45,963 bases of DNA from an uncultured Chloroflexota bacterium. Lineage in GTDB: Bacteria; Chloroflexota; Anaerolineae; Anaerolineales; Anaerolineaceae. The notes under the pieces were generated by a model that was given only the letters and a program-made list of their open reading frames with translations, did not search any database and was not told the origin of the DNA. The translations under genes were made by a program, and so were the position numbers. The stretch is taken from contig CACYHU010000042.1 of the NCBI GenBank assembly GCA_902774215.1, positions 1 to 45,963 on the forward strand, given 5' to 3'. This document shows, piece after piece, positions 1 through 45,963 of the stretch (within the stretch, counting starts at the first letter, position 1; every line of letters starts with the position of its first letter).

Positions 1-1130
1 ATCCAGTTATAAAGTGTCAGGTTATCGGGTCCGTATCCGGCACCGGTACGGATCTGGAAGGTTTCCATTACGAGGATGAACATCGGAACAAACATGGCAA
101 AAATCAGGAATATGCCTAAAAAGACCATAATCGGATAACGGGCAGAGCCCAGTTTCATCATTGTACTGTGCCCGCCTTTACCGCCAATCGTCTCATAAGA
201 TTTACGGGTACCAATAAAAGCCTGATTTGCCCAGATTGTACCGGAAGCCATGATGATCAGGAGGATCGCCATACAATAGCCTACCGTAGCGGAGCCCGTA
301 TTGATGAAGTCATGCATCTTGGTTGCGAGTGTGTAGTAACTTATACGCAACCCCAGGTTTGCCGCAACGCCATAAGTCCCGATAGACTTGCTCAAAGTCA
401 TGATCGCAGATGAGAGAACAGCGGGCATTACTAACGGGAGTGTGATGGAACGAAGAATATACACTTTACTTGCGCCTTGAATTTCCCCCATTTCCTCCAG
501 CTCACTGTTGATGGATCTGAGTGATCCTGAAACCATGATATATGTAAATGCGTAATAATGCAGCACCATACAGAGAATGATCGCTATAGGACCATAAGCA
601 AGCCAGTCCGGAATGTCCAGTCCAAGACCCTGCAGAAAACCGGGAGAGCCGCCCCGATTGTTACGGAATACCGCCAGCCATGCCATTGATTTGCACCATG
701 AAGGGATCATATACGGGATCATAATGCCAAGTGTCAGCCAGCGTTTGCCAGGCAGGTCACTGCGAACCATCAGCCAGGCTAATCCGGCACCCAGAGGTAC
801 AGCAAGAATCGTAACAAAGAAAGCAATCGTCAGGGAGTGCAGCAGAGGGGTAAAGAAATTTGCTTTGGCAAGCTTTCCCGTCAGCAGATACTTCCAATAA
901 TAAAGGGTAAAATCACCAACCTGTGCATCAGGTGTTGTTTTTTGGACGCGGCGCAGCTCCCCGGCTGCAAGAATAAACGTGGTACGCAGCATACGAATCA
1001 ACGGAATCGCGATGAGGAAAATCAACAGGACCAGTGAAATAAACACGATCATGTTAAATGGATTCGTAATTATATCCAGAAATTGATTCTTAAGCTTTTT
1101 CCACGAGAAAGGCTTTTTATTATCTGACAT
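1..1130 (-). CDS. ABC transporter permease, Fbp/Afu (ferric or sugar-phosphate) type, partial
   Basis: An open frame runs from an ATG at 1130 off the left edge, so only the first 376 residues are seen. A GAGGTGAG ribosome site sits just upstream of the ATG. The protein is strongly hydrophobic with several membrane segments. It carries an EAA-type coupling loop (EMGEIQGASKVYILRSITLP) that contacts the ATPase. After it comes a cytoplasmic linker ending 'YETIGGKGG' and then the start of a second membrane half, which is the layout of the long two-domain permeases of the FbpB/AfuB family. Family members move ferric ion, thiamine, polyamines or hexose phosphates; the substrate cannot be read from sequence. 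It is the first gene after its own promoter and shares an operator with the HAD/phosphomutase operon, so I infer a phosphorylated organic substrate is at least possible. The binding protein and ATPase would lie outside the window. Confidence 0.85.
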   Translation of the reverse strand, partial: MSDNKKPFSWKKLKNQFLDIITNPFNMIVFISLVLLIFLIAIPLIRMLRTTFILAAGELRRVQKTTPDAQVGDFTLYYWKYLLTGKLAKANFFTPLLHSLTIAFFVTILAVPLGAGLAWLMVRSDLPGKRWLTLGIMIPYMIPSWCKSMAWLAVFRNNRGGSPGFLQGLGLDIPDWLAYGPIAIILCMVLHYYAFTYIMVSGSLRSINSELEEMGEIQGASKVYILRSITLPLVMPAVLSSAIMTLSKSIGTYGVAANLGLRISYYTLATKMHDFINTGSATVGYCMAILLIIMASGTIWANQAFIGTRKSYETIGGKGGHSTMMKLGSARYPIMVFLGIFLIFAMFVPMFILVMETFQIRTGAGYGPDNLTLYNW

Positions 1131-1165: not shown

Positions 1166-1179
1166 CGAAAACGTTTTCG
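1166..1179. promoter_or_regulatory. LacI-family-type operator palindrome
   Basis: Perfect 14-bp palindrome CGAAAACGTTTTCG lying 36 bp before the permease start and 13 bp past its -10 box. An identical copy (17 bp identical including the flanking TTC) sits at 5129-5142 in the same relation to another promoter. The central ACGT and A/T-rich arms are typical of LacI/GalR-family operators. The regulator itself is not in the window. Confidence 0.8.
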
Positions 1180-1269: not shown

Positions 1270-1308
1270 AATATGATTTTTTATATGTTTCTATTTACAA
1301 ATCATATT
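1270..1308 (-). terminator. Weak AT-rich hairpin at the 3' end of the phosphomutase gene
   Basis: AATATGATTT (1270-1279) and AAATCATATT (1299-1308) are perfect 10-bp inverted repeats straddling the stop codon; on the minus strand they are followed by a short U-run. The stem has only two GC pairs, so termination would be inefficient and some read-through into the permease unit is possible. Confidence 0.35.
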
Positions 1309-2829
1309 ATCATAAGCCATATTCACTTTTGAATAATTACCGTCTCGATCCAGCGCAATTCCGCGTCCGACGCCATCCGCAACCTGCAGATTCAAACCGC
1401 GTGATTCAATCATATCATCTAATTCTTCAAGCAATGCAGGTGCTGACCCCGGCTCCGTGCTCCGTCCGTCAAAAATCACGTGAAGATATACTTTCGGCAG
1501 GTCCTTTGCTATTTCAGCAACCGCAAGCGGATAATAAATCGATCCATGTGAAGACTTTTTGGAAAGCAATCCGATCAAATGCAGCGGACACCCTTTTTCT
1601 TTAGCTCTTTCTACAGCATTTATAAGCACAGGATTTTTCCTAAAGGAACCATCTAAAATTGCGGTATCCAGACGGATATCGTCCTGCGGAACTACACGTC
1701 CCGCCCCGATGTTGCTGTGTCCGGCTTCAGAATTACCGGGTTTGCCATCACCCAATCCCACATAACTGCCGGAAGCGTGCAAAGATGAATGTGACTCATT
1801 TTCAAGCAGACTATCCCAGTAAGGTGTTTCACCGAGAAAAATCGCATCATTATCAGTCTTGTCACCTAATCCCCAGCCGTCACAGATGATCAGCAGCATT
1901 TTGCGGCCTTTTCCGAAATCATGTCCGCTGTAAAGAACCTCGCCATCCATCACTGCCGGCTGTTTTATTCCCATTACACTCAGGACAGTCGGTGCAATAT
2001 CTTTAAGTGACCCATCCTTCAGAATGATTGGATCATTCCTTAAAGGGTCGATCATGATGAATGCCACGAGATTGGATGTATGTGCTACATGCGGTTTTCC
2101 TTTTTCCGTATGCAGCATTTCGATGTTGCCATGATCAGCTGTAACCGCAATAACATATCCGGCTTTCCGTGCAGCTGTAATGACTTGTTCCAAAGCTTTG
2201 CTTACATGACCTGCGGCTTCAATCTTTGCAGCATCATTTGAAGTATGACCGATCACATCTCCGTTGGCAAAATTGGTAACGATGAAATCATATTTACCCA
2301 GTGCACTCACTACTTTTTCAGCAACTTCAGGAAGTGACAGTTCCGGTTTTGTATCAAACGGTACTCCCTTCAATGATGGAACACAGGTATCCACCTCTCC
2401 GGGAAAAGGCTGGTTTTCTCCGCCGTTCAGAAAAAAAGTAACATGCGCGAATTTTTCCGATTCAGAACAGTGAAACTGTGTTTTACCGGCTTTGCTCAGT
2501 ATTTCAGCAAGTGGCATCTTCACATGAGACGGACCGAAAGCAACCGGTAAATTTTTAAATTTCTCATGATAAAGTGTCAAAATTGTAAAATCAAGATCTT
2601 TCAGAAGTCTCCGATCTGTTTTATCAAAAGACGGATCAGTAAACATTTCTGTCAGTTCTATCTCCCGTTCTCCCCGGCGGCAGCAAAAAACCACACTATC
2701 ACCATCCTGAATATATCCGGTGCCAAGCGTAATTGGGTTCAGAGAGTAATCGATTTCACCCTTTGCATAGGATTCGCGGACAAGTTCTGCGAGTTCATGC
2801 CCTCCATGTGTAACCTTTTTTGCAATCAT
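1291..2829 (-). CDS. Circularly permuted cofactor-independent phosphoglycerate mutase homologue
   Basis: A 512-residue member of the GpmI/alkaline-phosphatase superfamily with rearranged order. Residues about 7-300 match the second part of ordinary GpmI: Arg52/Arg55, Lys126 in ESEKFAHVTFF, metal ligands Asp191/His195 (NGDVIGH), Asp232/His233 (TADHGN), His250 (AHTSN), then the usual C-terminal 'P.VMDGEVL'. Residues about 311-510 match the usual N-terminal part: Asp317 in IICDGWG, nucleophile Ser367 in GNSEAGH, His428, Asp454 in FDGRS, Arg489 and DRD. The new termini fall between the normal 'AYD.M' and 'GG...Y..G' segments, and about 15 residues bridge the old ends. The catalytic motifs I looked for are all kept, so a metal-dependent phosphomutase or phosphatase is likely; whether the substrate is phosphoglycerate is open. 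The ATG overlaps the upstream stop (TAATG), so it is translationally coupled to the HAD genes. Family assignment is firm; exact substrate is not. Confidence 0.9.
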   Translation of the reverse strand: MIAKKVTHGGHELAELVRESYAKGEIDYSLNPITLGTGYIQDGDSVVFCCRRGEREIELTEMFTDPSFDKTDRRLLKDLDFTILTLYHEKFKNLPVAFGPSHVKMPLAEILSKAGKTQFHCSESEKFAHVTFFLNGGENQPFPGEVDTCVPSLKGVPFDTKPELSLPEVAEKVVSALGKYDFIVTNFANGDVIGHTSNDAAKIEAAGHVSKALEQVITAARKAGYVIAVTADHGNIEMLHTEKGKPHVAHTSNLVAFIMIDPLRNDPIILKDGSLKDIAPTVLSVMGIKQPAVMDGEVLYSGHDFGKGRKMLLIICDGWGLGDKTDNDAIFLGETPYWDSLLENESHSSLHASGSYVGLGDGKPGNSEAGHSNIGAGRVVPQDDIRLDTAILDGSFRKNPVLINAVERAKEKGCPLHLIGLLSKKSSHGSIYYPLAVAEIAKDLPKVYLHVIFDGRSTEPGSAPALLEELDDMIESRGLNLQVADGVGRGIALDRDGNYSKVNMAYDNMICK

Positions 2830-3614
2830 TAGTTTTCACCTCCCGGCCATGCCTTCTCCGGCGGTATCATAGCCTGTAAATTTACTTTCCCCGGTTCCGG
2901 AAACAGATCCAGCAGCTGCGGAAACTTAAAAATTACACAATCTGGGCGGTTTTCTGAAGTAAGACTGTATTTCTTTGCTCCCCATTTAGCGGCAATGGTT
3001 ATTCCCATATTTACAGCCTTCGCCCCAATAATATCGCGATCCAGATTATCTCCAAGAAATGCACTGTTTTCTGCCGGAATTCCGACTTCATTTATCGCAT
3101 AATAATAAATTGCAGGTCCCGGTTTCCGTACATAACAAATGGAAGACTGCTGAACAGTTTTGAAATACGGACGCAGACCATCCTCATCCAGCCACTCATC
3201 AACTTCTTTTGTCCCGACCAAATCCGAAATAATTCCTACAGAAAATCCACGGCGGTTCAGTTCTTTAACTGTATCAGCACCGCCATCGACCACAACACGG
3301 CGACCTTTTGTTTTCCGATATTGATACGTCAGCTCACCTGCGTATTTTTTTATTCTCTCCGGATCATAGTCATAAGCAAGCCATCTGCTCCACAAAACCT
3401 GCTCCGGTGCTTCACAGAAATATTTCAGCGCCCATTCACGGTAAATATCATATCTTGGCGAAATCACTTCATCATATAATATTTCAGGATCCATATCTGT
3501 ATCACACATCTGTGCTATTTTACGCTTCGCTTCGAGAATATAATCCTTTTCCTTCAGAACAACCCGGAAAGTATCTCCCAAATCAATATAAATTGCTCGA
3601 ATATCAGTATTCAA
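2829..3614 (-). CDS. HAD-family hydrolase, third tandem paralogue
   Basis: A 261-residue haloacid-dehalogenase-fold protein. Motif I is Asp11 in 'YIDLGDT', motif II the Ser of 'VGIISD', motif III the Lys of 'VRKPGP', motif IV 'LGDNLDRD'. The Asp two residues after the nucleophile, the general acid of most HAD phosphatases, is Gly here as in both neighbours. The start is TTG at 3614, chosen because AAGGAGG lies 5-6 nt upstream inside the previous gene and the N-terminus then aligns with its two paralogues; there is no gap to the upstream stop. The stop overlaps the phosphomutase ATG by one base. Shared unusual segments with the paralogues (a W..WL..DY stretch and KGRR near residue 100) mark a local gene triplication. 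A phosphatase acting on a small phosphorylated metabolite is the likeliest role; the substrate is unknown. Confidence 0.85.
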   Translation of the reverse strand: MNTDIRAIYIDLGDTFRVVLKEKDYILEAKRKIAQMCDTDMDPEILYDEVISPRYDIYREWALKYFCEAPEQVLWSRWLAYDYDPERIKKYAGELTYQYRKTKGRRVVVDGGADTVKELNRRGFSVGIISDLVGTKEVDEWLDEDGLRPYFKTVQQSSICYVRKPGPAIYYYAINEVGIPAENSAFLGDNLDRDIIGAKAVNMGITIAAKWGAKKYSLTSENRPDCVIFKFPQLLDLFPEPGKVNLQAMIPPEKAWPGGEN

Positions 3615-4349
3615 TCAGGCCTCCTTCGGTGGAAACAGAGCAAGAAGCTCATAGAAATCATTTACGACTGCATCCGGAGGATTTTCTCCGTTTGGATCAA
3701 CAGGATGCTTTTTTTCAGGAGAATTGTAAATAACATTATAAGCAATTCCCGCTTCACGGGCACCTTCTATATCGCGTTCTTGGTTATCAGCAACCGAAGC
3801 AATCTCTTCACAGGGAATTCCAAGGTCACGGCTGCAGACCCGGTATATTTCAGAATCCGGTTTTCTCAGACCGCATTCCGGTGAAAGGATCACTGAGGAA
3901 AAAAGATCACTCAGACCGTCTTCCTCAAGCCAATCATATACTTCTGTCTCACCTATCAGGTTGCTGATGATGCCAAGTTTATATTCCCTACGGTAAAGTT
4001 CGCGCAGAACTTCCTCACCATGATCAACTAAAAAACGGCGGCCTTTTGATTGACGGTATTCATAAGATAACTTATGTCTGTTTTTCATGATCAGGTCTCT
4101 CGGATAATCAAAAAGCAGCCACCTGCACCATAGCTCTTCATCATCTGATTCCCTATTCTCTCTGAGAGCCCATTCACGATATTTTTCATAACGTTCTTCA
4201 ACCATCTGATAAAAATCTTCAAAAGGCAGTTCTGTACCGGCCAGGTTTGCCATATTGATTCGACCTTTTTCCATCCATTTTTCATCTTTTATTGCTATAC
4301 GCAAAGTACCGCCAAGGTCAAAAACAATTGCTTTGATATTTTTATTCAT
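3615..4349 (-). CDS. HAD-family hydrolase, second tandem paralogue
   Basis: A 244-residue HAD-fold protein. It has Asp11 in 'VFDLGGT' (again without the second Asp), Ser in 'LGIISN', Lys in 'LRKPDSEIY' and a motif IV that reads 'VADNQERD' instead of the usual GDN. The helical cap lies between motifs I and II, roughly residues 18-110, and shares with the next gene the ELW..WLL.DY and SKGRR segments. It starts ATG with AAGGG about 8 nt upstream and lies 5 nt after the previous HAD gene and immediately before the next, so all are co-transcribed. It is closer in sequence to the third copy than to the first. Its role is unknown; a phosphatase on a sugar or acid phosphate supplied by this operon is an inference. 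Confidence 0.85.
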   Translation of the reverse strand: MNKNIKAIVFDLGGTLRIAIKDEKWMEKGRINMANLAGTELPFEDFYQMVEERYEKYREWALRENRESDDEELWCRWLLFDYPRDLIMKNRHKLSYEYRQSKGRRFLVDHGEEVLRELYRREYKLGIISNLIGETEVYDWLEEDGLSDLFSSVILSPECGLRKPDSEIYRVCSRDLGIPCEEIASVADNQERDIEGAREAGIAYNVIYNSPEKKHPVDPNGENPPDAVVNDFYELLALFPPKEA

Positions 4350-4354
4350 GTTTA

Positions 4355-5092
4355 TTACCCTTTTCTGTCAGGGAATATATCCAGCAGTTCATGGAGTGAG
4401 GTAATTACATGATCCGGAATAAATTCTCTGCCTGTTGCCTTTTCCCTGTTCAGTGTATCAGGTTCATCGATTCGGATCATCATCCCAAAACCTGCTGCCT
4501 GAGTTCCTTCAACATCACGAACCGGATTATCCCCGACATATGCACAATTTTCAGGTTTTGTACCGATACACCTGCACGCAAGATAATAGATTTCCGGATC
4601 CGGTTTGCGCAGTCGTACTTTTGACGAGAGAATTGTTGTTTTGAAAAAACGAGCGACATGATCTTCCACCATCCAATCCGGAATTTCAGTTTCGGTGATT
4701 GTGTTGGCAATGATCCCCATGGTATAACCTTTACGGTCAAGTCCTTCCAATGTCTCACGCACATCAGGGCGGGCAACACGGCGGCCGTCATGATCGCGCC
4801 ACAGACGCGTCAGCCGGCTGGCATGGGAAGCAATCAATTCCGGATCGTAATCCGGAAGCAAATACTGCATCCATAGTTCCATCTCAGAGCAATCGAGGAG
4901 AGACGTTTTAGCATATTTTCGATAAGCTTGCCAGCGTGTTTCAAGTTTTTCAAAAAATGCATCGTGTGTTTCCTTCGTTTTTGTCAAACGCATCAATTCA
5001 GTCTCTGCCGCATCAATAAAAGCTTTATCAGGCAAAACAACACGCAGGGTATTTCCTACATCAAAAAATATTGTTTGTATATCTTTATCCAT
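4355..5092 (-). CDS. HAD-family hydrolase, first tandem paralogue
   Basis: A 245-residue HAD-fold protein and first gene of the operon. Motif I is Asp11 in 'FFDVGNT', motif III Lys in 'LRKPDPEIY', motif IV 'VGDNPVRD'. The motif II Ser/Thr of its paralogues is Ala ('MGIIANT'), and the +2 Asp of motif I is Gly, so its chemistry may differ from a standard phosphatase. A GGAGG site lies just upstream of the ATG, and a strong promoter with a LacI-type operator precedes it at 5129-5184. The three paralogues may have split substrates or functions after duplication. Without a known close relative the substrate remains open. Confidence 0.85.
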   Translation of the reverse strand: MDKDIQTIFFDVGNTLRVVLPDKAFIDAAETELMRLTKTKETHDAFFEKLETRWQAYRKYAKTSLLDCSEMELWMQYLLPDYDPELIASHASRLTRLWRDHDGRRVARPDVRETLEGLDRKGYTMGIIANTITETEIPDWMVEDHVARFFKTTILSSKVRLRKPDPEIYYLACRCIGTKPENCAYVGDNPVRDVEGTQAAGFGMMIRIDEPDTLNREKATGREFIPDHVITSLHELLDIFPDRKG

Positions 5093-5128: not shown

Positions 5129-5142
5129 CGAAAACGTTTTCG
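5129..5142. promoter_or_regulatory. LacI-family-type operator palindrome, second copy
   Basis: The same perfect CGAAAACGTTTTCG palindrome as at 1166-1179, 13 bp past the -10 box of the HAD operon promoter and 36 bp before the first start codon. Operator-to--10 and operator-to-ATG spacings equal those of the permease unit, which points to one repressor controlling both. Confidence 0.8.
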
Positions 5143-5326: not shown

Positions 5327-7081
5327 ATGAAAATTTTATTTGTAACCAGCGAATGTGCTCCGTTCAGTAAATCCGGAGGATTGGCAGATGTTGCTTTTTC
5401 TCTTCCCCCCGCTTTACAAAAAGCAGGTAATGAAGTTGCCATCATTACACCGTTTTATCAATGTGTACGGGAAAAATTCGGTCAGGAAATTACCAGAGTC
5501 TGCGAAAGAACAATACAGCATGGACAATGGTCTTATCCCATTGAACTCTACCGCGGGTATCGGGATGGTGTAACCGTATGGTTCGTTGACTATGCACCTT
5601 TCTTTGACAGGCCGAAATTGTATGGTTACAAAGACGATAAAATGCGGTTTGCCATGTTCAGCAGGGCTGTTCTCGAAGTATTGGGAGATCTTGATTTCCG
5701 GCCTGAAATTCTTCACTGCAACGATTGGGAAACTGCTTTGACAGTCATTTATCTGAAAAATGACCAATCATGGCGCAAGGATCTTCAGGGAATTAAAACT
5801 GTCTATACGATCCATAATATTGCTTATCAAGGCCAGTTTGGTGAAAAAGACCTCACGACAACTTTTGCGCTGCCGGAAGGTTGGTACCAGGGCGGTTTGG
5901 GATATGAATATGAAGGCCGGCATGATGTAAACCTGATGAAAGGTGCCATGCTTATGGCAGATGCTGTTTCGACTGTATCCCCTAATTACGCAAGAGAGCT
6001 TCACAGTTCCAAATATGCAATGGGACTTGAAGGTGTGGCCGACATGGTCGATTATAAGCTATACGGCATACTCAACGGGATCGATATGGACCATTATGAT
6101 CCGGCAAAAGATCCGCGTATTCCCCAAAATTTTGATATCAGACATATGAAGGGAAAGCACATCTGTAAAGCAAGTATCCAAAAGAAATTCGGTCTGGATG
6201 TCATGCCTGAGTATCCGCTGCTGGCTTCTGTTGCGCGTCTTAATGAACAGAAGGGTATCGAATTGATAAAAGAAGCTCTCCCCGGTATTATGAATATGGG
6301 TGTTCAGCTGATCGTTTTCGGCCAGGGAGAACAGCAGTATATCGATTTCTTCCAAAAAGCCAGAAAAAAATGGCCGGGGCACGGTTTATCTCAAATGATG
6401 GCAATGCGTTACGGGACGGTGCCGATCGTTCATGAAACCGGAGGACTAAAAGATTCTGTCCGGCCATACAGCTCTTTTGACGGTCTTGGTGACGGTTTTT
6501 CCTTTATCACTTATCATTCAAAAGCCCTCTATCTTGCAATTCAGGCCGCGGTCAAGATCTACTTTGGGGATAATAAAACTTTTAAAATACTTCAGAAACG
6601 CTGCATGAAAAAAGATTTCTCATGGACTAAAAGCGCTGAGCAATATAATCAGATGTACAGCGAAATCTATGTAGGCGGAAGCGGAGAACCAATTCCATTC
6701 AGTGAAGCCTTCGATAAGCTGAAAACAGCTTTCTCAGAATTGGATAAACAAAGCCGGGAAAAACATCATCTCAAACTCGATAAAAATTATTCCCGTGTTA
6801 TTCAATTTGAAATTACAGGGCCCGGAGAAGGTGTTTTTTATATGAAATTTACTCCGAAAAAGACTGTAATTGTTCCGGAAAAACATCCCAATCCGGATGC
6901 CACATTTGCGTCAAGTTTTGATCATTTCCTGGGTATGGCAAAGGGAGAACTCTCTGCGGACAGGCTTTTCATCACCGGACAGATGAAAGTATCGGGAAAT
7001 ATCGCGAAAGGTGCCGAACTCCGTCATTTTTTGAACCCGGTCAAAAAACGCTCCTCTTCCCGGAAGAAAAAGGAGCAATAA
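5327..7081 (+). CDS. glgA: Glycogen synthase (GT5) with C-terminal SCP2 domain; internal in-frame gap
   Basis: A 584-residue protein. Residues 1-455 are a GT5 glycogen synthase, which transfers glucose from ADP-glucose to glycogen. The N-terminal lobe has the nucleotide-sugar loop SKSGGLADV (Lys15), and 'HNIAYQG' and 'LNGIDMDHYDP' are present. The C-terminal lobe jumps from KKWPG (residue 351) straight to HGLSQMMAMRYGT, so about 31 residues found in GlgA proteins are missing, including the conserved Glu of the EPCGL active-site motif. The reading frame is kept. Residues about 461-570 form an SCP2-like domain (FYMKFTPKK, FDHFLGMAKGELSADRLFITG) followed by a basic tail; this domain is not part of ordinary GlgA. 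A strong AAGGGGAGG site precedes the ATG. As written the enzyme is probably inactive; an assembly or sequencing deletion is the alternative. Confidence 0.9.
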   Translation: MKILFVTSECAPFSKSGGLADVAFSLPPALQKAGNEVAIITPFYQCVREKFGQEITRVCERTIQHGQWSYPIELYRGYRDGVTVWFVDYAPFFDRPKLYGYKDDKMRFAMFSRAVLEVLGDLDFRPEILHCNDWETALTVIYLKNDQSWRKDLQGIKTVYTIHNIAYQGQFGEKDLTTTFALPEGWYQGGLGYEYEGRHDVNLMKGAMLMADAVSTVSPNYARELHSSKYAMGLEGVADMVDYKLYGILNGIDMDHYDPAKDPRIPQNFDIRHMKGKHICKASIQKKFGLDVMPEYPLLASVARLNEQKGIELIKEALPGIMNMGVQLIVFGQGEQQYIDFFQKARKKWPGHGLSQMMAMRYGTVPIVHETGGLKDSVRPYSSFDGLGDGFSFITYHSKALYLAIQAAVKIYFGDNKTFKILQKRCMKKDFSWTKSAEQYNQMYSEIYVGGSGEPIPFSEAFDKLKTAFSELDKQSREKHHLKLDKNYSRVIQFEITGPGEGVFYMKFTPKKTVIVPEKHPNPDATFASSFDHFLGMAKGELSADRLFITGQMKVSGNIAKGAELRHFLNPVKKRSSSRKKKEQ

Positions 7082-9094: not shown

Positions 9095-10072
9095 TTAGTA
9101 CCCAATAGCTTTCAGAATCCTCTCCAACACCTTTAGATTTCCCGTGGTAAATTCCCGGGAAACATGCGGAGTTTCACCGTTCAGAATACATCTTCCGAAT
9201 TGTTCAACCTCAAGCCGATAATTATGAGGAGTAAAAACAGTTTTTTCCTCACATTTTTCATTGCGGATAATGGTATAGGTCAAATAGCCGCAGCCATTGA
9301 ATTCTGCCGTTGAGCGTATTGATCCCTCAGAACCTTCAATGCGCAGCTGATCGATCCTGCGTTTTGCATTTGTTTCCAGAACCATCCCGCAATTCATGAA
9401 AGCCTTGAAACTGTTCTTATATTTGAATATTGCACTTGTAAGAACATCAACTCCTTCCGTGGAAAAAGCAGAGACAGCATTAACCTCATCCGGCTCCAGA
9501 CCTGTCATCCAACCGATCATGCTTGTATTATAGCAGCCAAGATCATAGGTGCATCCTCCCAAGGTTTCTTTACGCATCCGAATGTTTGAAAGGTCATAAT
9601 CGGAAGTGATAAATTGAGATTCCAGATACCTCAGCTCACCTATTGCTCCGCTTTCTATCTCATTTTTAATTGCTGCTATGAACGGGGAATGAAGATATGC
9701 AAAAGCTTCCATCAGTAAAACATGATTTTTATCAGCTGTTCTAAATAGTTCTTCGGCTTCAGAAGCAGTCGGAGTTATTGGCTTTTCGCATAATACATGT
9801 TTCCCGTTTTGAAGCGCCTTTTTTACCCACTCAAAATGCAATGAATTCGGCAGAGGGATATAAACTGCTTCTACAGTCGGGTCTGAAATCAATTGATCAT
9901 AACTTCCATAGGCTTTATCAAAACCAAATTTCTCCTGAAATTAAAGTGCCTTATCAATATTTTTACCTGCAATTGCATATAATGAACAATTTTCCGCCTC
10001 AATCATTCCCCGAATTGTCTGATCTTTAGCAATTCCGGCAGTTCCCAATACACCCCATTTGACTTTCTCCAT
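9095..10072 (-). pseudogene. Gfo/Idh/MocA-family oxidoreductase broken by a nonsense codon
   Basis: From an ATG at 10072 (GAGGAG site 7 nt upstream) the frame reads a typical Rossmann start (MEKVKWGVLGTAGIAKDQ) to residue 43, then meets TAA at 9943-9941, then continues in the same frame with a perfectly good family sequence to 9095. Restored length is 325 residues, normal for the family. The downstream part carries the catalytic-lysine motif CEKP and the 'YDLGCYNTSM' region. One base change, for example GAA to TAA, would explain it. Internal initiation at about 9892 would give a 265-residue product without the nucleotide-binding loop. NAD(P)-dependent oxidation of a sugar or polyol would be the ancestral role. 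Sequencing error is the other explanation. Confidence 0.85.
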
Positions 10073-41972: not shown

Positions 41973-43064
41973 TCATTGCTTTATTGTCATTACAATTTTA
42001 TTTTTGAATTCCTCATTATCTGTTTCAACGTAGGTTATTTCTGAAACGGCGGATTTCAGAACAGTAACAGAAAGATCGTCTGCTTTTTCAGTATGATCAT
42101 AACGATCACCGTTGTAAAAAACGGACATGACTGCTTTTTCGTCATCGGATGAATATTCAACAACTGTATGGATCTTCGGCGATTTGAGAACCGGAAGCAG
42201 CAGATTCTGGATAGTTTCCTCAAATGCCAGTTGAATATGCTGTGTGATTTTGGGATTTACCTGATTCTTGAAACAATAATTTTCAATTTCACTGACCATT
42301 CCGTGAAAATCGTAATTTCTGCTTTCAATAATCAGCTCAAGTACTTTCAGCTTACGGATAAAGCGGCGGGTATTCTCCTTCTGAGGGTCATCAAAAATTT
42401 GCTCAGGCGTTCCGTCTTCATAGATGCCACCTTCATCCATATAAAACACCCGGTTGGAAATAGATCGTGCGAAGTTCATTTCATGTGTCACGATCATCAT
42501 CGTTTTACCGGTCTTCGCCAGGTCACTGATCACCGCCTGTACTTCACCTACCATCGTTGGATCCAGAGCGCTGGTTGGTTCATCCAGTAAAATGATTTCC
42601 GGGTCCATTGCAAGTGTTCTGGCAATAGCTACACGCTGTTTCTGACCGCCTGACAGCTGATCCGGATAATTTAAGCCTCGTTCCCTGAGTCCGACCATTC
42701 TCAGCAGACGCATTCCTTCGTCATAGGCTTCCTGCTTCGACTTACCGAGCAGATCCATGGGCGGGACCATAATGTTTTCAATTACAGTCATGTGTCCGAA
42801 CAAATTGAAAGACTGGAACACCATACCCATTTTCTGCCGGATTTTTCCGAGATCTGTTTTCGGATCAGTCACATCTACATCACCAACCCAGATATGTCCG
42901 GCAGTAGGAGTATCAAGACGATTGATACACCGCAGCAGCGTACTTTTACCAGTACCGGAAGGGCCAATGACAGCGATCACATCCCCATCATGAATCTCAA
43001 CATTCACATCTTCCAAAGGGACTGCATTCGGATACTCTTTTCTTAGATGTTCAATTCTGATCAT
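41973..43064 (-). CDS. Polar amino-acid ABC transporter ATPase with C-terminal GHKL-like domain
   Basis: A 363-residue protein. Residues 1-242 are a GlnQ/HisP-type ATPase: Walker A GPSGTGKST, Q-loop 'VFQSFNLF', signature LSGGQKQR, Walker B 'IILLDEPTSALDP', H-loop 'VTHEM'. Residues about 245-363 are extra for this family and resemble an RsbW/HATPase-like fold: an N-box-like 'FEETIQN' at the end of a long helix, then a beta-rich part with YNGDRYDHTE where the nucleotide Asp motif would be. The true G boxes are degenerate, so it may bind a nucleotide weakly or serve as a protein-interaction module. AAAGGAG precedes the ATG, which lies 14 bp inside the permease gene. It is downstream of the fused binding-protein/permease gene and is its natural ATPase. 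Confidence 0.88.
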   Translation of the reverse strand: MIRIEHLRKEYPNAVPLEDVNVEIHDGDVIAVIGPSGTGKSTLLRCINRLDTPTAGHIWVGDVDVTDPKTDLGKIRQKMGMVFQSFNLFGHMTVIENIMVPPMDLLGKSKQEAYDEGMRLLRMVGLRERGLNYPDQLSGGQKQRVAIARTLAMDPEIILLDEPTSALDPTMVGEVQAVISDLAKTGKTMMIVTHEMNFARSISNRVFYMDEGGIYEDGTPEQIFDDPQKENTRRFIRKLKVLELIIESRNYDFHGMVSEIENYCFKNQVNPKITQHIQLAFEETIQNLLLPVLKSPKIHTVVEYSSDDEKAVMSVFYNGDRYDHTEKADDLSVTVLKSAVSEITYVETDNEEFKNKIVMTIKQ

Positions 43065-45963
43065 TGGTGTTTACTCCTTTCAGGATCGCTTTCCCGGAAC
43101 GGCGTTTCGGGTCGATATTTATTTTGATCCGACTGACGAACATTCCCAGCAACATTTCAAGCACAAAATAAATAACAGTAACCGCTATCAACGGGAAGAA
43201 CGCCTCGTACGTTCTGCTGCGTACAATATCTCCCATCTTTGTCAGGTCCTGAACTGCAATATAACCGACAATAGCCGTACCCTTCAGTAAACTGATGATT
43301 TCACCTTTGTAGGCATCCATCACATGCGGGATGGCTTGAGGCAGAATAATGCGGAAAAAGGTGCGGATGTTTGAATACCCCAATGCATAAGCAGCTTCAT
43401 ACTGCCCGTAATCTACCGCTCCGACGCCCATCTTAAGCAAACCGTAAACAGAGGCTCCAAACGTAAGCGTAAACCCGATCACAGCGACGATAATTCCGGA
43501 AATTGATACGGAACCAAAGATCACATAGAATAGGATCATCAATAAAACCACCCCCGGCATCCCCTGTACCAGCCACATGCATTTTGAGGTGATCCAGTTC
43601 GCGGCCGGGTTCCCGTTGCGGCAAAGCATAAACAGCACAAAGCCGAGAAGTGTTCCAAAGATGATGGAGAGTATAGTTATCAGCAGTGTATTGAGGACTC
43701 CTTCCGCGAAGAGATTCCATCGGTCTTCCCTGATAAAGGTCTTATTAAAGCTTTCTTTGATCCCTGCCCATAATGTTTCCAATTTAGACGGGGCTTTAAT
43801 TACGGATCCTTCATTATCGGCTTCTTCATTTCCGGTTCCTTTGTCCGCTGTTTTTACTACCAGGACTACTCGTCCATGATAATACGAATCAGAGAACAAA
43901 ACACTTTCCGCACGTTCATCGGTCAAAGAAAGACCCGCTGCGCCAATATCGTATTTACCGGTTTGAATTGAGGGTAAAATGGAATCAAAGCTTGTATTGA
44001 TAAACTCCACTCCGTAACCATATTCTTCGCAAAACCGAACGATAATATCATCCTCATATCCGACGATCTCACCGTTATAGATGAAACCAAAGGGTTCATA
44101 CATCGGCTCCGTTGCGACATGAATTATACCGTTCGTAGCAGGAAAAGACCTGTAATCTGCCAACTTCCATTCGCTCGCGTCTCCGTTGATCCATTTGTAT
44201 TCAATTTCTTTCAGTGTTCCATCAGATTTAATCTTCTTCAGGAATTCATTAAACTCTTCACATAATTTTTCACCTTTTTCATTTTTTACAAATGAATAAC
44301 CAAAATCATATGTTCCTATTTCTTCCGGAATATAGGTAAGATCCGAAATTGTCCTCATTTCAAACTGAATAACAGGTTCATCAATCGCATAAGCATCGAT
44401 TTTTCCTGCCAGTAAGGCATTTGCCATATCAGCTTTGTTATTGAAATAAAGCAGTTCGGAGTTTGGCATTTTATTCCGAGCCATATCATCGAAATTCGTC
44501 CCGGTCTGTACACCGATCTGTTTCCCGTCCAGTTCATCGAAAGAGCTGTATTTCCCGGCCGGTAATTGGTCGAATTCATTGGAGATACCGGAATCTGAAT
44601 AGATTGCTTTGTCAGGATTCAGAATGGCCATTACGACACCTCCGGAATAGACCGGTTCTGAGAAATAAACACTTTCCGCTCTCTCTTCTGTAATAGTGAA
44701 AGAAGAACAGCTGAAGTCATATTTTCCTGACTGAATTGAGGCCAAAATCGAACCAAAGCTCATGTTTATGATCTCAAGTTTGTAGCCGTATTTTTCACAG
44801 AAGCCTATGGCCAGATCGATCTCATACCCGATAATCGAATTGTCTCTGAAATATTGAAAAGGCGGGCACTGCGCATCAGTTACCATCGTCAATTTGCCGT
44901 TTGGACCGGGGAGTTCCTCAAGGTTCGGCAGTTTCTTTTTACTCTCATCAGATCCGAACCAGATATCCTGCATCTCATCAATGGTACCGTCTTTTTGGAT
45001 CTGTCCAATGAATTCATTGAATTCATCACTAAGTTTTTTCCCTGCATCATTTTTTGGGAAGACGCAACCATATTCAAAGGGTTCTAAATAGTCAGGAATA
45101 TACGAGAGCTTGTCATTTTCACTCATCATGGTGCGGATGATCGGTTCATCGGCAGGAAAACTTACAATCTTATTTCCTGACAGAGCCGTAACCAGATCGG
45201 CATTCGAATTGTAATAGGATATGATCGAATCAGGAAAATTTAACTCCAACATAGAGTCAAAGCTGGTCCCGGTCTTGACTCCAAGCGGTTTCCCGTTCAA
45301 ATCCTCCAGTGTTAACACTGTATTTTCATCTGACAAATCTTTTGAATCTGTTTCCTGATTCGGTATACTTCTTACAACCAGAACGAATGCTGCAGGGTAA
45401 TAAGAGACAAAATCCACAGCCTCTTCTCTCTCCGGCGTGATAATGATAGACCCAGCACCCAAAAGTGCCTTGCCGGATTGTACGTAAGCAAGGATTGCGG
45501 AAAATTCCATGCCGGTAAACTCAACATGGACGTCGAGTTCCTTTGCAATCAGCAGAATTATTTCAATATCGAACCCTATCAATTCTCCACCCGGTCCAAC
45601 GTAGCTCATCGGTTCGAGTGTGTCACATACTGCTGCCTTTACGGTCCCGTTCAAACCGGGCCAGTCCTGTTTGGGGAGAGTTTTCAGGCTGTCATCGGCT
45701 CCTGTCCATTTTTTCCAGGCAGCCTGTAATGTATTTTCATCGATGGTATCATAAGCAGCCTGCCATTTGTCTCTGTTTGGATCGCCGTTCGCAAAAGCAA
45801 AGCCGAATGCACCATCCTTCAGCTCCTGTGGAAACATCGCAATTTTCGGATCACGGTTTACAGCCAGCTGTGCGATAGCGTTGTTATTTAAACATGCATC
45901 CGTTTTTCCGGATTCAAGCGCCAGAATAATATCGGGCATATTGGAAAAGAATGTAAAACCACC
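43051..45963 (-). CDS. Fused tandem substrate-binding domains plus amino-acid ABC permease, partial
   Basis: The frame is open to the right edge, so the N-terminus is missing; 970 residues are seen. Counting from the Met at 45939: 1-97 is the second half of one SBP family 3 domain; 98-345 and 347-600 are two complete SBP domains (each starts 'V..D...P..Y' and has a 'G.D.G....T.ER...V.FS' region); 603-697 matches only the first lobe of a fourth; and about 735-950 is a HisM/GlnP-type permease with the EAA loop (EAAYALGYSNIRTFFRIILP). Fused SBD-permeases import glutamine, arginine or similar; several domains may bind different amino acids or raise capture. The last half-domain may dock, not bind. 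It is followed by its ATPase. Confidence 0.9.
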   Translation of the reverse strand, partial: GGFTFFSNMPDIILALESGKTDACLNNNAIAQLAVNRDPKIAMFPQELKDGAFGFAFANGDPNRDKWQAAYDTIDENTLQAAWKKWTGADDSLKTLPKQDWPGLNGTVKAAVCDTLEPMSYVGPGGELIGFDIEIILLIAKELDVHVEFTGMEFSAILAYVQSGKALLGAGSIIITPEREEAVDFVSYYPAAFVLVVRSIPNQETDSKDLSDENTVLTLEDLNGKPLGVKTGTSFDSMLELNFPDSIISYYNSNADLVTALSGNKIVSFPADEPIIRTMMSENDKLSYIPDYLEPFEYGCVFPKNDAGKKLSDEFNEFIGQIQKDGTIDEMQDIWFGSDESKKKLPNLEELPGPNGKLTMVTDAQCPPFQYFRDNSIIGYEIDLAIGFCEKYGYKLEIINMSFGSILASIQSGKYDFSCSSFTITEERAESVYFSEPVYSGGVVMAILNPDKAIYSDSGISNEFDQLPAGKYSSFDELDGKQIGVQTGTNFDDMARNKMPNSELLYFNNKADMANALLAGKIDAYAIDEPVIQFEMRTISDLTYIPEEIGTYDFGYSFVKNEKGEKLCEEFNEFLKKIKSDGTLKEIEYKWINGDASEWKLADYRSFPATNGIIHVATEPMYEPFGFIYNGEIVGYEDDIIVRFCEEYGYGVEFINTSFDSILPSIQTGKYDIGAAGLSLTDERAESVLFSDSYYHGRVVLVVKTADKGTGNEEADNEGSVIKAPSKLETLWAGIKESFNKTFIREDRWNLFAEGVLNTLLITILSIIFGTLLGFVLFMLCRNGNPAANWITSKCMWLVQGMPGVVLLMILFYVIFGSVSISGIIVAVIGFTLTFGASVYGLLKMGVGAVDYGQYEAAYALGYSNIRTFFRIILPQAIPHVMDAYKGEIISLLKGTAIVGYIAVQDLTKMGDIVRSRTYEAFFPLIAVTVIYFVLEMLLGMFVSRIKINIDPKRRSGKAILKGVNTNDQN

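Follow-up and report, generated by a model that had tools for sequence, protein, structure and literature searches.

Circular permutations are seldom met in nature within the enzyme families of core metabolism. The closest described system to the gene examined here is the phosphoglycerate mutase GpmI (iPGM; TIGR01307; PF06415 plus PF01676), with which the gene product shares two domains, a two-metal and serine set, and substrate-binding arginine, lysine, and histidine residues. iPGM has been described as a phosphatase domain and a transferase domain with two hinges between them (PMC5382265), and a survey of bacterial phosphoglycerate mutases refers to iPGM paralogues as rare (PMC2964296). The protein encoded in our window (the whole stretch of DNA analyzed, 45,963 nucleotides from an uncultured Chloroflexota bacterium) differs from GpmI in that its sequence blocks are swapped, with new ends within the transferase domain, and in that it carries serine for a conserved aspartate and S-S-H-G for G-V-H-S. 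Its gene is also a paralogue, located beside HAD and transport genes. A further likeness is to an engineered, circularly permuted Escherichia coli alkaline phosphatase, a member of the same superfamily that appears in the reference list of PMC2395249. By its title, that protein is a laboratory construct, and it belongs to another family, whereas the window protein is natural and is part of a conserved clade.

A reading of this DNA made from the sequence alone knew of no described permuted member of the family, and literature searches agreed with it, giving none by title or passage. No description of a permuted iPGM was found in the literature searched, which was covered mostly by title and left subscription papers largely outside its scope, and the circular-permutation papers searched by word held no permuted iPGM case. 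The permuted proteins form a conserved natural enzyme family that has apparently gone undescribed.

Swapped block order of the window gene

The permuted iPGM-family gene (P0001), delineated by frame, profiles, alignment, and BLASTP, occupies positions 1291..2829. It starts with ATG and runs for 512 codons with zero internal stops, bearing out the uninterrupted frame described in the sequence-only reading; the strand, which that reading did not give, is minus. The motif order and residue numbers reported there also agree with the sequence and the alignment. The window protein passes the NCBIfam profile TIGR01307 with 451.5 bits (cut-off, 330.65), split over two stretches. Profile positions 211 to 503 correspond to residues 11 to 299 (1933..2799, minus strand), the canonical C-terminal part, which comprises the second transferase part and most of the phosphatase domain. 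Between the old C and N termini lies a linker, residues 300 to 308 by the TIGR01307 profile and alignment (1906..1932, minus strand), which at about 9 to 10 residues is shorter than the joint of roughly 15 residues claimed earlier. Positions 2 to 125 of Pfam iPGM_N match residues 388 to 510 (1300..1668, minus strand), a first iPGM_N part that is now C-terminal, and iPGM_N positions 124 to 216 match the N-terminal end of the gene (2566-2829). The canonical order (phosphatase part 1, transferase domain, phosphatase part 2) is absent from the window protein, and the blocks are swapped.

Alignment to canonical iPGM by BLASTP gave the same picture. In native order, the window protein matched as two swapped blocks in all six proteins compared, whereas the rotated sequence matched as a single end-to-end block in 6/6, the outcome anticipated for a rotation test against GpmI. 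With L085, for example, the rotated sequence scored 325 bits (E = 2e-109) and the native order 197 + 144 bits. Sequence matches in the PDB were iPGM in 11 of 11 cases, each aligned in two stretches. We conclude that the gene is a natural circular permutant of iPGM, in the alkaline-phosphatase superfamily. The new ends fall in the middle of iPGM_N, within the transferase domain. Combined with the published two-hinge architecture, this break suggests that the nesting is inverted, such that the phosphatase domain would now be continuous and nested inside the transferase domain.

The window stems from a 240-contig draft genome, a circumstance that favors reading the swapped order as an assembly join or as two adjacent gene fragments. 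However, the frame is single and uninterrupted, and at least 37 other full-length loci in separate records, including the complete chromosome CP102272.1 and isolates, share the identical order. Because of these relatives, an assembly artifact or split gene, which we consider vanishingly improbable, was rejected; the sequence-only reading had named adjacent genes or a join as grounds for abandoning its proposal, and its case for a natural permutation is instead strengthened. No remnant of a tandem duplication was detected by Tandem Repeats Finder (periods up to 500). Self-comparison of the window returned one repeat pair only, unrelated to the gene and inside the open reading frame at 43051-45939 (minus strand). 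The 962-residue product of that frame combines three solute-binding stretches of family 3 with a single ABC permease domain and contains an internal 67% repeat.

Spread, origin, and selection of the permuted order

To survey relatives, a genome scan was conducted that confirmed 107, and 80 of these 107 loci were examined by frame and motif order. Thirty-seven were full-length and permuted and 40 were canonical; the remaining three (L034, L041, and L042) end at contig ends and were kept outside the residue counts. L034, though cut, shows the permuted order, and L041 and L042 are too short to judge. The permuted order occurs in Chloroflexota, Oscillospiraceae, Erysipelotrichaceae, and other Firmicutes, with many carriers from animal guts. 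Relative to the window protein, identity was 85 to 86% in Chloroflexi/Flexilinea metagenome-assembled genomes (L004 to L007), 62 to 66% in Oscillibacter, Dysosmobacter, and Oscillospiraceae, 61 to 62% in Erysipelotrichaceae, and 58% in the complete genome of [Clostridium] asparagiforme DSM 15981, which carries two permuted copies. The canonical-order loci (n = 40) were 35 to 43% identical to it per block. One continuous match at E ≤ 1e-40 was present in 2 of 301 Chloroflexota genomes sampled, the window's own genome and G038; a sampled genome of the host's own genus had no continuous match at that threshold. Strong matches to the C-terminal piece were present in 2 of 391 genomes from the class of G018, namely G018 itself and G709; this sample held 14 weaker candidate matches besides. 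The permuted gene was thus found to be rare in two genome samples. Its patchy spread across phyla suggests lateral transfer.

For phylogenetic analysis, sequences were rotated into canonical order, and 41 permuted sequences (the window protein, the 37 relatives, L117 of G038, the second C. asparagiforme copy, and the G709 protein) were compared with 88 canonical ones after two identical canonical rows were dropped. All 41 permuted sequences formed one clade (support = 0.999), which was also recovered from each block separately (0.971 and 0.982). Both blocks therefore share one history and are not a fusion of unrelated pieces. Recovery of one clade from each block indicates that the permuted order probably arose once; independent origins are not favored by the trees. 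The sister group of the permuted clade among canonical proteins received support of only 0.566. In two less saturated pairs, dN was 0.023 with dS of 0.494 and 0.034 with dS of 0.328 (dN/dS of about 0.05 and 0.10); between the window gene and L004 to L007, dN was 0.089 to 0.114 with dS near saturation. The permuted gene is under strong purifying selection.

L117 (G038:C318:3208-4830) is a deep-branching permuted member that has GRRGE where DGRDT is usual. Its neighbors include a SecA-like gene, identified by eye, and a histidine-phosphatase-like gene. Wider sampling around L117, which for its class covered its own genome only, gave no further members.

Active-site residues and predicted structure

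Residue conservation was examined in a rotated alignment of 38 permuted sequences (the window protein and the 37 relatives) and 58 canonical sequences of 61 candidates; the three canonical candidates outside these rows (L084, L097, and L101) all have canonical order with DGRD. The metal ligands D317, S367, D232, H233, D191, H195, and H250 are shared by no fewer than 95% of the permuted sequences and 85% of the canonical ones, and they match those named for Caenorhabditis elegans iPGM (PMC5382265). By alignment, Ser367 of NSEAGH (1729..1731, minus strand) is the predicted phosphorylated nucleophile, a role taken from the equivalent Ser86 (PMC5382265, PMC8113725). The substrate residues H428, R456, R489, R495, R52, R55, and K126 are conserved to the same degree. 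We take these to be H123, R153, R185, R191, R261, R264, and K336, in the numbering and with the roles of the Bacillus stearothermophilus enzyme.

One constant residue, in contrast, is lost. At the position of the aspartate of DGRD, the window protein has Ser457 (1459..1461, minus strand); serine stands there in 38/38 permuted sequences versus aspartate in 58/58 canonical ones, and in the larger set the counts were 40 serine and 1 glycine among 41 permuted sequences versus aspartate in 88/88. The lost residue is presumably D154, although neither its role nor its numbering was found in the literature searched. The loop bearing the catalytic histidine changes from [GNC]-V-H-[SAC] in the 88 canonical sequences to S-S-H-G in 41/41 permuted ones, and canonical N-F-R-x-D-R becomes C-x-R-G-E-R in the 38 permuted sequences. 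The earlier statement that every motif is kept therefore fails at the aspartate following the arginine of DGRD. Replacement of constant pocket residues across the whole clade argues for a changed substrate or reaction.

A structure was predicted with AlphaFold2 from 20 of the 38 permuted sequences. The best of five models had a pLDDT of 89.8 and a pTM of 0.85, and mean pLDDT over the five ranged from 77.1 to 89.8. All 22 Foldseek matches in the PDB at E ≤ 0.001 were iPGM. About half of the model was aligned, as expected when a sequential aligner meets a permutant; the match to 5vpu covered 267 columns with a TM score of 0.48 and an rmsd of 2.1 Å. The closest fits (266 to 267 columns, 2.1 to 2.2 Å) were to 5vpu, 1o98, 1o99, and 1ejj, whose titles name bound 2- or 3-phosphoglycerate. 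Nematode iPGM structures fit the model at 7 to 10 Å over approximately 300 columns, and the 3-PGA-bound Staphylococcus aureus iPGM 4nwj also fit worse, at 4.7 Å.

Gene neighborhood, paralogue status, and candidate reaction

Three minus-strand genes, assigned by profiles to HAD-family hydrolases, precede the permuted gene. The operon opens with the one at 4355..5092, followed by the second at 3615..4349 and the third at 2829..3614; the stop codon of the third (TAA) and the start codon of the permuted gene (ATG) overlap by a single base (TAATG). On its other side lies an ABC importer permease gene (3..1130, minus strand) that is cut by the contig end, recognized from its frame and from gene order in L004 to L007. 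In related loci, where neighboring genes were chosen with codon-model selection, all four of L004 to L007 have the order HAD-HAD-HAD-permuted iPGM-permease-ATPase-binding protein. Across 40 permuted loci, the next upstream gene was a HAD gene in 30 and another gene in 9, with one locus unparsed; ABC-cluster genes were present in 13/40 within the fetched flanks, and the LacI cluster in 25/40.

The HAD arrays upstream of the permuted gene contain one to five genes. In the HAD cluster, motif I reads DxG for DxD, with glycine at the second aspartate in 98 of 106 sequences and 8 unparsed. Judged by N-terminal sequence, the upstream HADs seem to fall into distinct orthologous groups that persist across phyla. 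A solved-structure search with the third HAD of L004 matched only distant HAD structures and so indicates no substrate. The window also carries a glycogen synthase gene, glgA (5327-7081, plus strand), whose product ends in an SCP2 domain. This GlgA seems to be missing a portion of its second catalytic domain, as the best profile stretches end near residue 350; it is a fusion, with a possible in-frame loss.

A divergent LacI-PHP-PfkB unit accompanies the permuted gene in many Oscillospiraceae loci, and many have a split transketolase and an iron-type alcohol dehydrogenase downstream. A solved-structure search with the PHP protein returned an AI-designed barrel only. A Gfo/Idh gene is likewise present downstream in five Oscillospiraceae loci, and the L010 member scores as an inositol dehydrogenase. 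In L012, L010, and other Oscillospiraceae, the LacI, PHP, PfkB, transketolase, alcohol-dehydrogenase, and inositol-dehydrogenase-like genes form a putative catabolic cluster around the permuted gene. The window has a Gfo/Idh-type oxidoreductase frame of its own (9095-9892, minus strand), in which the Rossmann profile matches from position 57 only, so that the N-terminal portion is apparently absent or lies in another frame.

Importer genes together with a metallo-beta-lactamase-fold gene were seen at L026, L027, and L039 (Pfam checked for L026). The second C. asparagiforme copy has a binding protein and a metallo-beta-lactamase fold nearby, with a likely permease and ATPase by eye; the first copy lies beside tricarboxylate-transporter genes, and HAD and ABC clusters are absent. 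The L026 binding protein was nearest to 6hhb and 6fjl, both named as iron-type transport components; 4r72 came further down, followed by the weaker pyridoxal-phosphate binder 6wce. Profiles of phosphonate-type binding proteins matched it as well, at scores under their cut-offs. We take 4r72 to be AfuA. AfuABC has been characterized as an importer of sugar phosphates (PMC4546632), and the L026 protein thus bears a distant likeness to importers of this type; it differs from them in being closer to 6hhb and 6fjl, and the L004 binding protein differs in having no solved-structure match. Given the likeness of the L026 protein to 4r72, 6wce, and phosphonate-type proteins, an organophosphate is a plausible ligand of the importer.

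A site search revealed two copies of a perfect palindrome, CGAAAACGTTTTCG. One precedes the operon of HAD genes and permuted iPGM (5129..5142), where it is a predicted LacI-type operator, and the other precedes the ABC permease gene (1166..1179). These are the only sites in the window at two or fewer mismatches, a result that 2 of 100 shuffles equaled, so that the window sites taken by themselves may be due to chance. The exact palindrome occurs twice in the 4.78-Mb draft genome, both times at this locus; as a control, the backward pattern had zero exact sites in the same 4.78 Mb. The palindrome is exact at both equivalent places in L004 and L005; L006 has it with two mismatches at one place, and L007 has none within two mismatches. 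Of the 25 LacI-bearing loci, 22 have a two-mismatch form between the LacI gene and the first HAD gene. The host genome also encodes a LacI orthologue, which shares 56% identity with the L012 protein (414 bits, versus 195 for the next best match). This orthologue is encoded on another contig (C58), where the only nearby match to parts of the cluster is a distant one to a response regulator. The shared palindrome predicts that the importer and the permuted enzyme would belong to one regulon.

The host genome encodes a canonical GpmI elsewhere, at G000:C79, as well as a match at the very edge of the cut-off for the cofactor-dependent family (82.4 versus 81.7 bits, pieces summed). Because a normal GpmI is present, the permuted gene is an accessory paralogue in its own genome, and a role as the sole glycolytic mutase was rejected there. 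The sequence-only reading had thought it unlikely to be the glycolytic copy, and it is indeed not the cell's only phosphoglycerate mutase. For 27 of the 40 permuted loci, the genome was searched for canonical GpmI: it was above cut-off in 20, gave partial matches in two (G014 and G015), and was not found in five (G009, G017, G023, G025, and G026). Among these five, G023 holds a cofactor-dependent mutase (389 bits), G017 has weak matches only, and G009, G025, and G026 have none. A glycolytic role is possible in the drafts of G009, G017, G025, and G026, since they gave no good match in the two mutase families searched, cofactor-independent and cofactor-dependent. In G038, a cofactor-dependent mutase scored 374 bits and canonical GpmI was not found.

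What reaction, then, might the permuted enzyme catalyze? It could be a second phosphoglycerate mutase isozyme, permuted but performing the same reaction and used on operon induction. Consistent with this, all metal ligands, the nucleophile, and the substrate arginines, lysine, and histidine are kept, and this set would also fit phosphoglycerate, which counts against a new substrate; the window protein and 4/4 relatives scanned pass the TIGR01307 equivalog cut-off; and of the five genomes in which canonical GpmI was not found, four gave no good cofactor-dependent mutase. We nevertheless consider such an isozyme unlikely, as the position that is invariably aspartate in the 58 canonical sequences is never aspartate in the permuted clade, most of the genomes searched (20/27) encode canonical GpmI, and the neighbors are hydrolases, transport genes, and sugar-type enzymes. 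The altered transferase pocket beside an intact metal site, together with the adjoining HAD hydrolases, is also in keeping with a phosphatase, in which the loss of the aspartate would let water hydrolyze the phosphoserine with no hand-back of phosphate. This sub-case of the explanation we prefer is itself rather doubtful: the substrate-holding arginines are kept, and the best superpositions of the AlphaFold2 model are on several iPGM structures with bound substrate, 4nwj excepted (4.7 Å).

On balance, we lean toward the permuted iPGM being a neofunctionalized phosphomutase or phosphatase whose phosphorylated substrate is something other than phosphoglycerate. Against this reading, and its link to import in particular, stand the presence of ABC genes in only 13 of the 40 loci within the fetched flanks, the iron-type names of the nearest matches to the L026 binding protein, and the first C. 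asparagiforme copy with its tricarboxylate-transporter neighbors. In such a scheme, the importer would bring in a compound that either carries a phosphate already or acquires one, and the permuted enzyme would close both domains over it. Phosphate would be moved to Ser367 at the two-metal site (D317, S367, D232, and H233; D191, H195, and H250) and then either given to another hydroxyl of the same molecule, as in a mutase, or released, as in a phosphatase. The substrate may be a related phosphorylated hydroxy acid or sugar acid; it is most likely not 2- or 3-phosphoglycerate, because the aspartate beside the substrate arginine is serine and the catalytic-histidine loop is SSHG. The HAD hydrolases would be part of this pathway, and the LacI-family repressor encoded on C58 would probably control both units via the palindrome. 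The substrate class, mutase versus phosphatase action, substrate import, and the part of the repressor are elements of this scheme that we infer. More tentatively, and at a probability somewhat short of even, a once-only, inside-out permutation may have given rise to a new family of phosphomutases or phosphatases that act on a new substrate, key to an unrecognized pathway of organophosphate uptake and breakdown in Chloroflexota and Firmicutes.

When four permuted relatives were scanned with TIGR01307, all scored 443 to 465 bits, so that with the window protein 5/5 lie above the cut-off. Profile-based annotation would consequently label permuted proteins as glycolytic mutases, and the GpmI label may be wrong in metabolic models of gut bacteria. 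If the proposal is true, a new family has been hidden because annotation profiles call its members GpmI. The permutation accompanies the clade-wide loss of a constant active-site residue, which makes a link between permutation and new function directly askable, and the importer, HAD array, and LacI site would offer a concrete route to the substrate.
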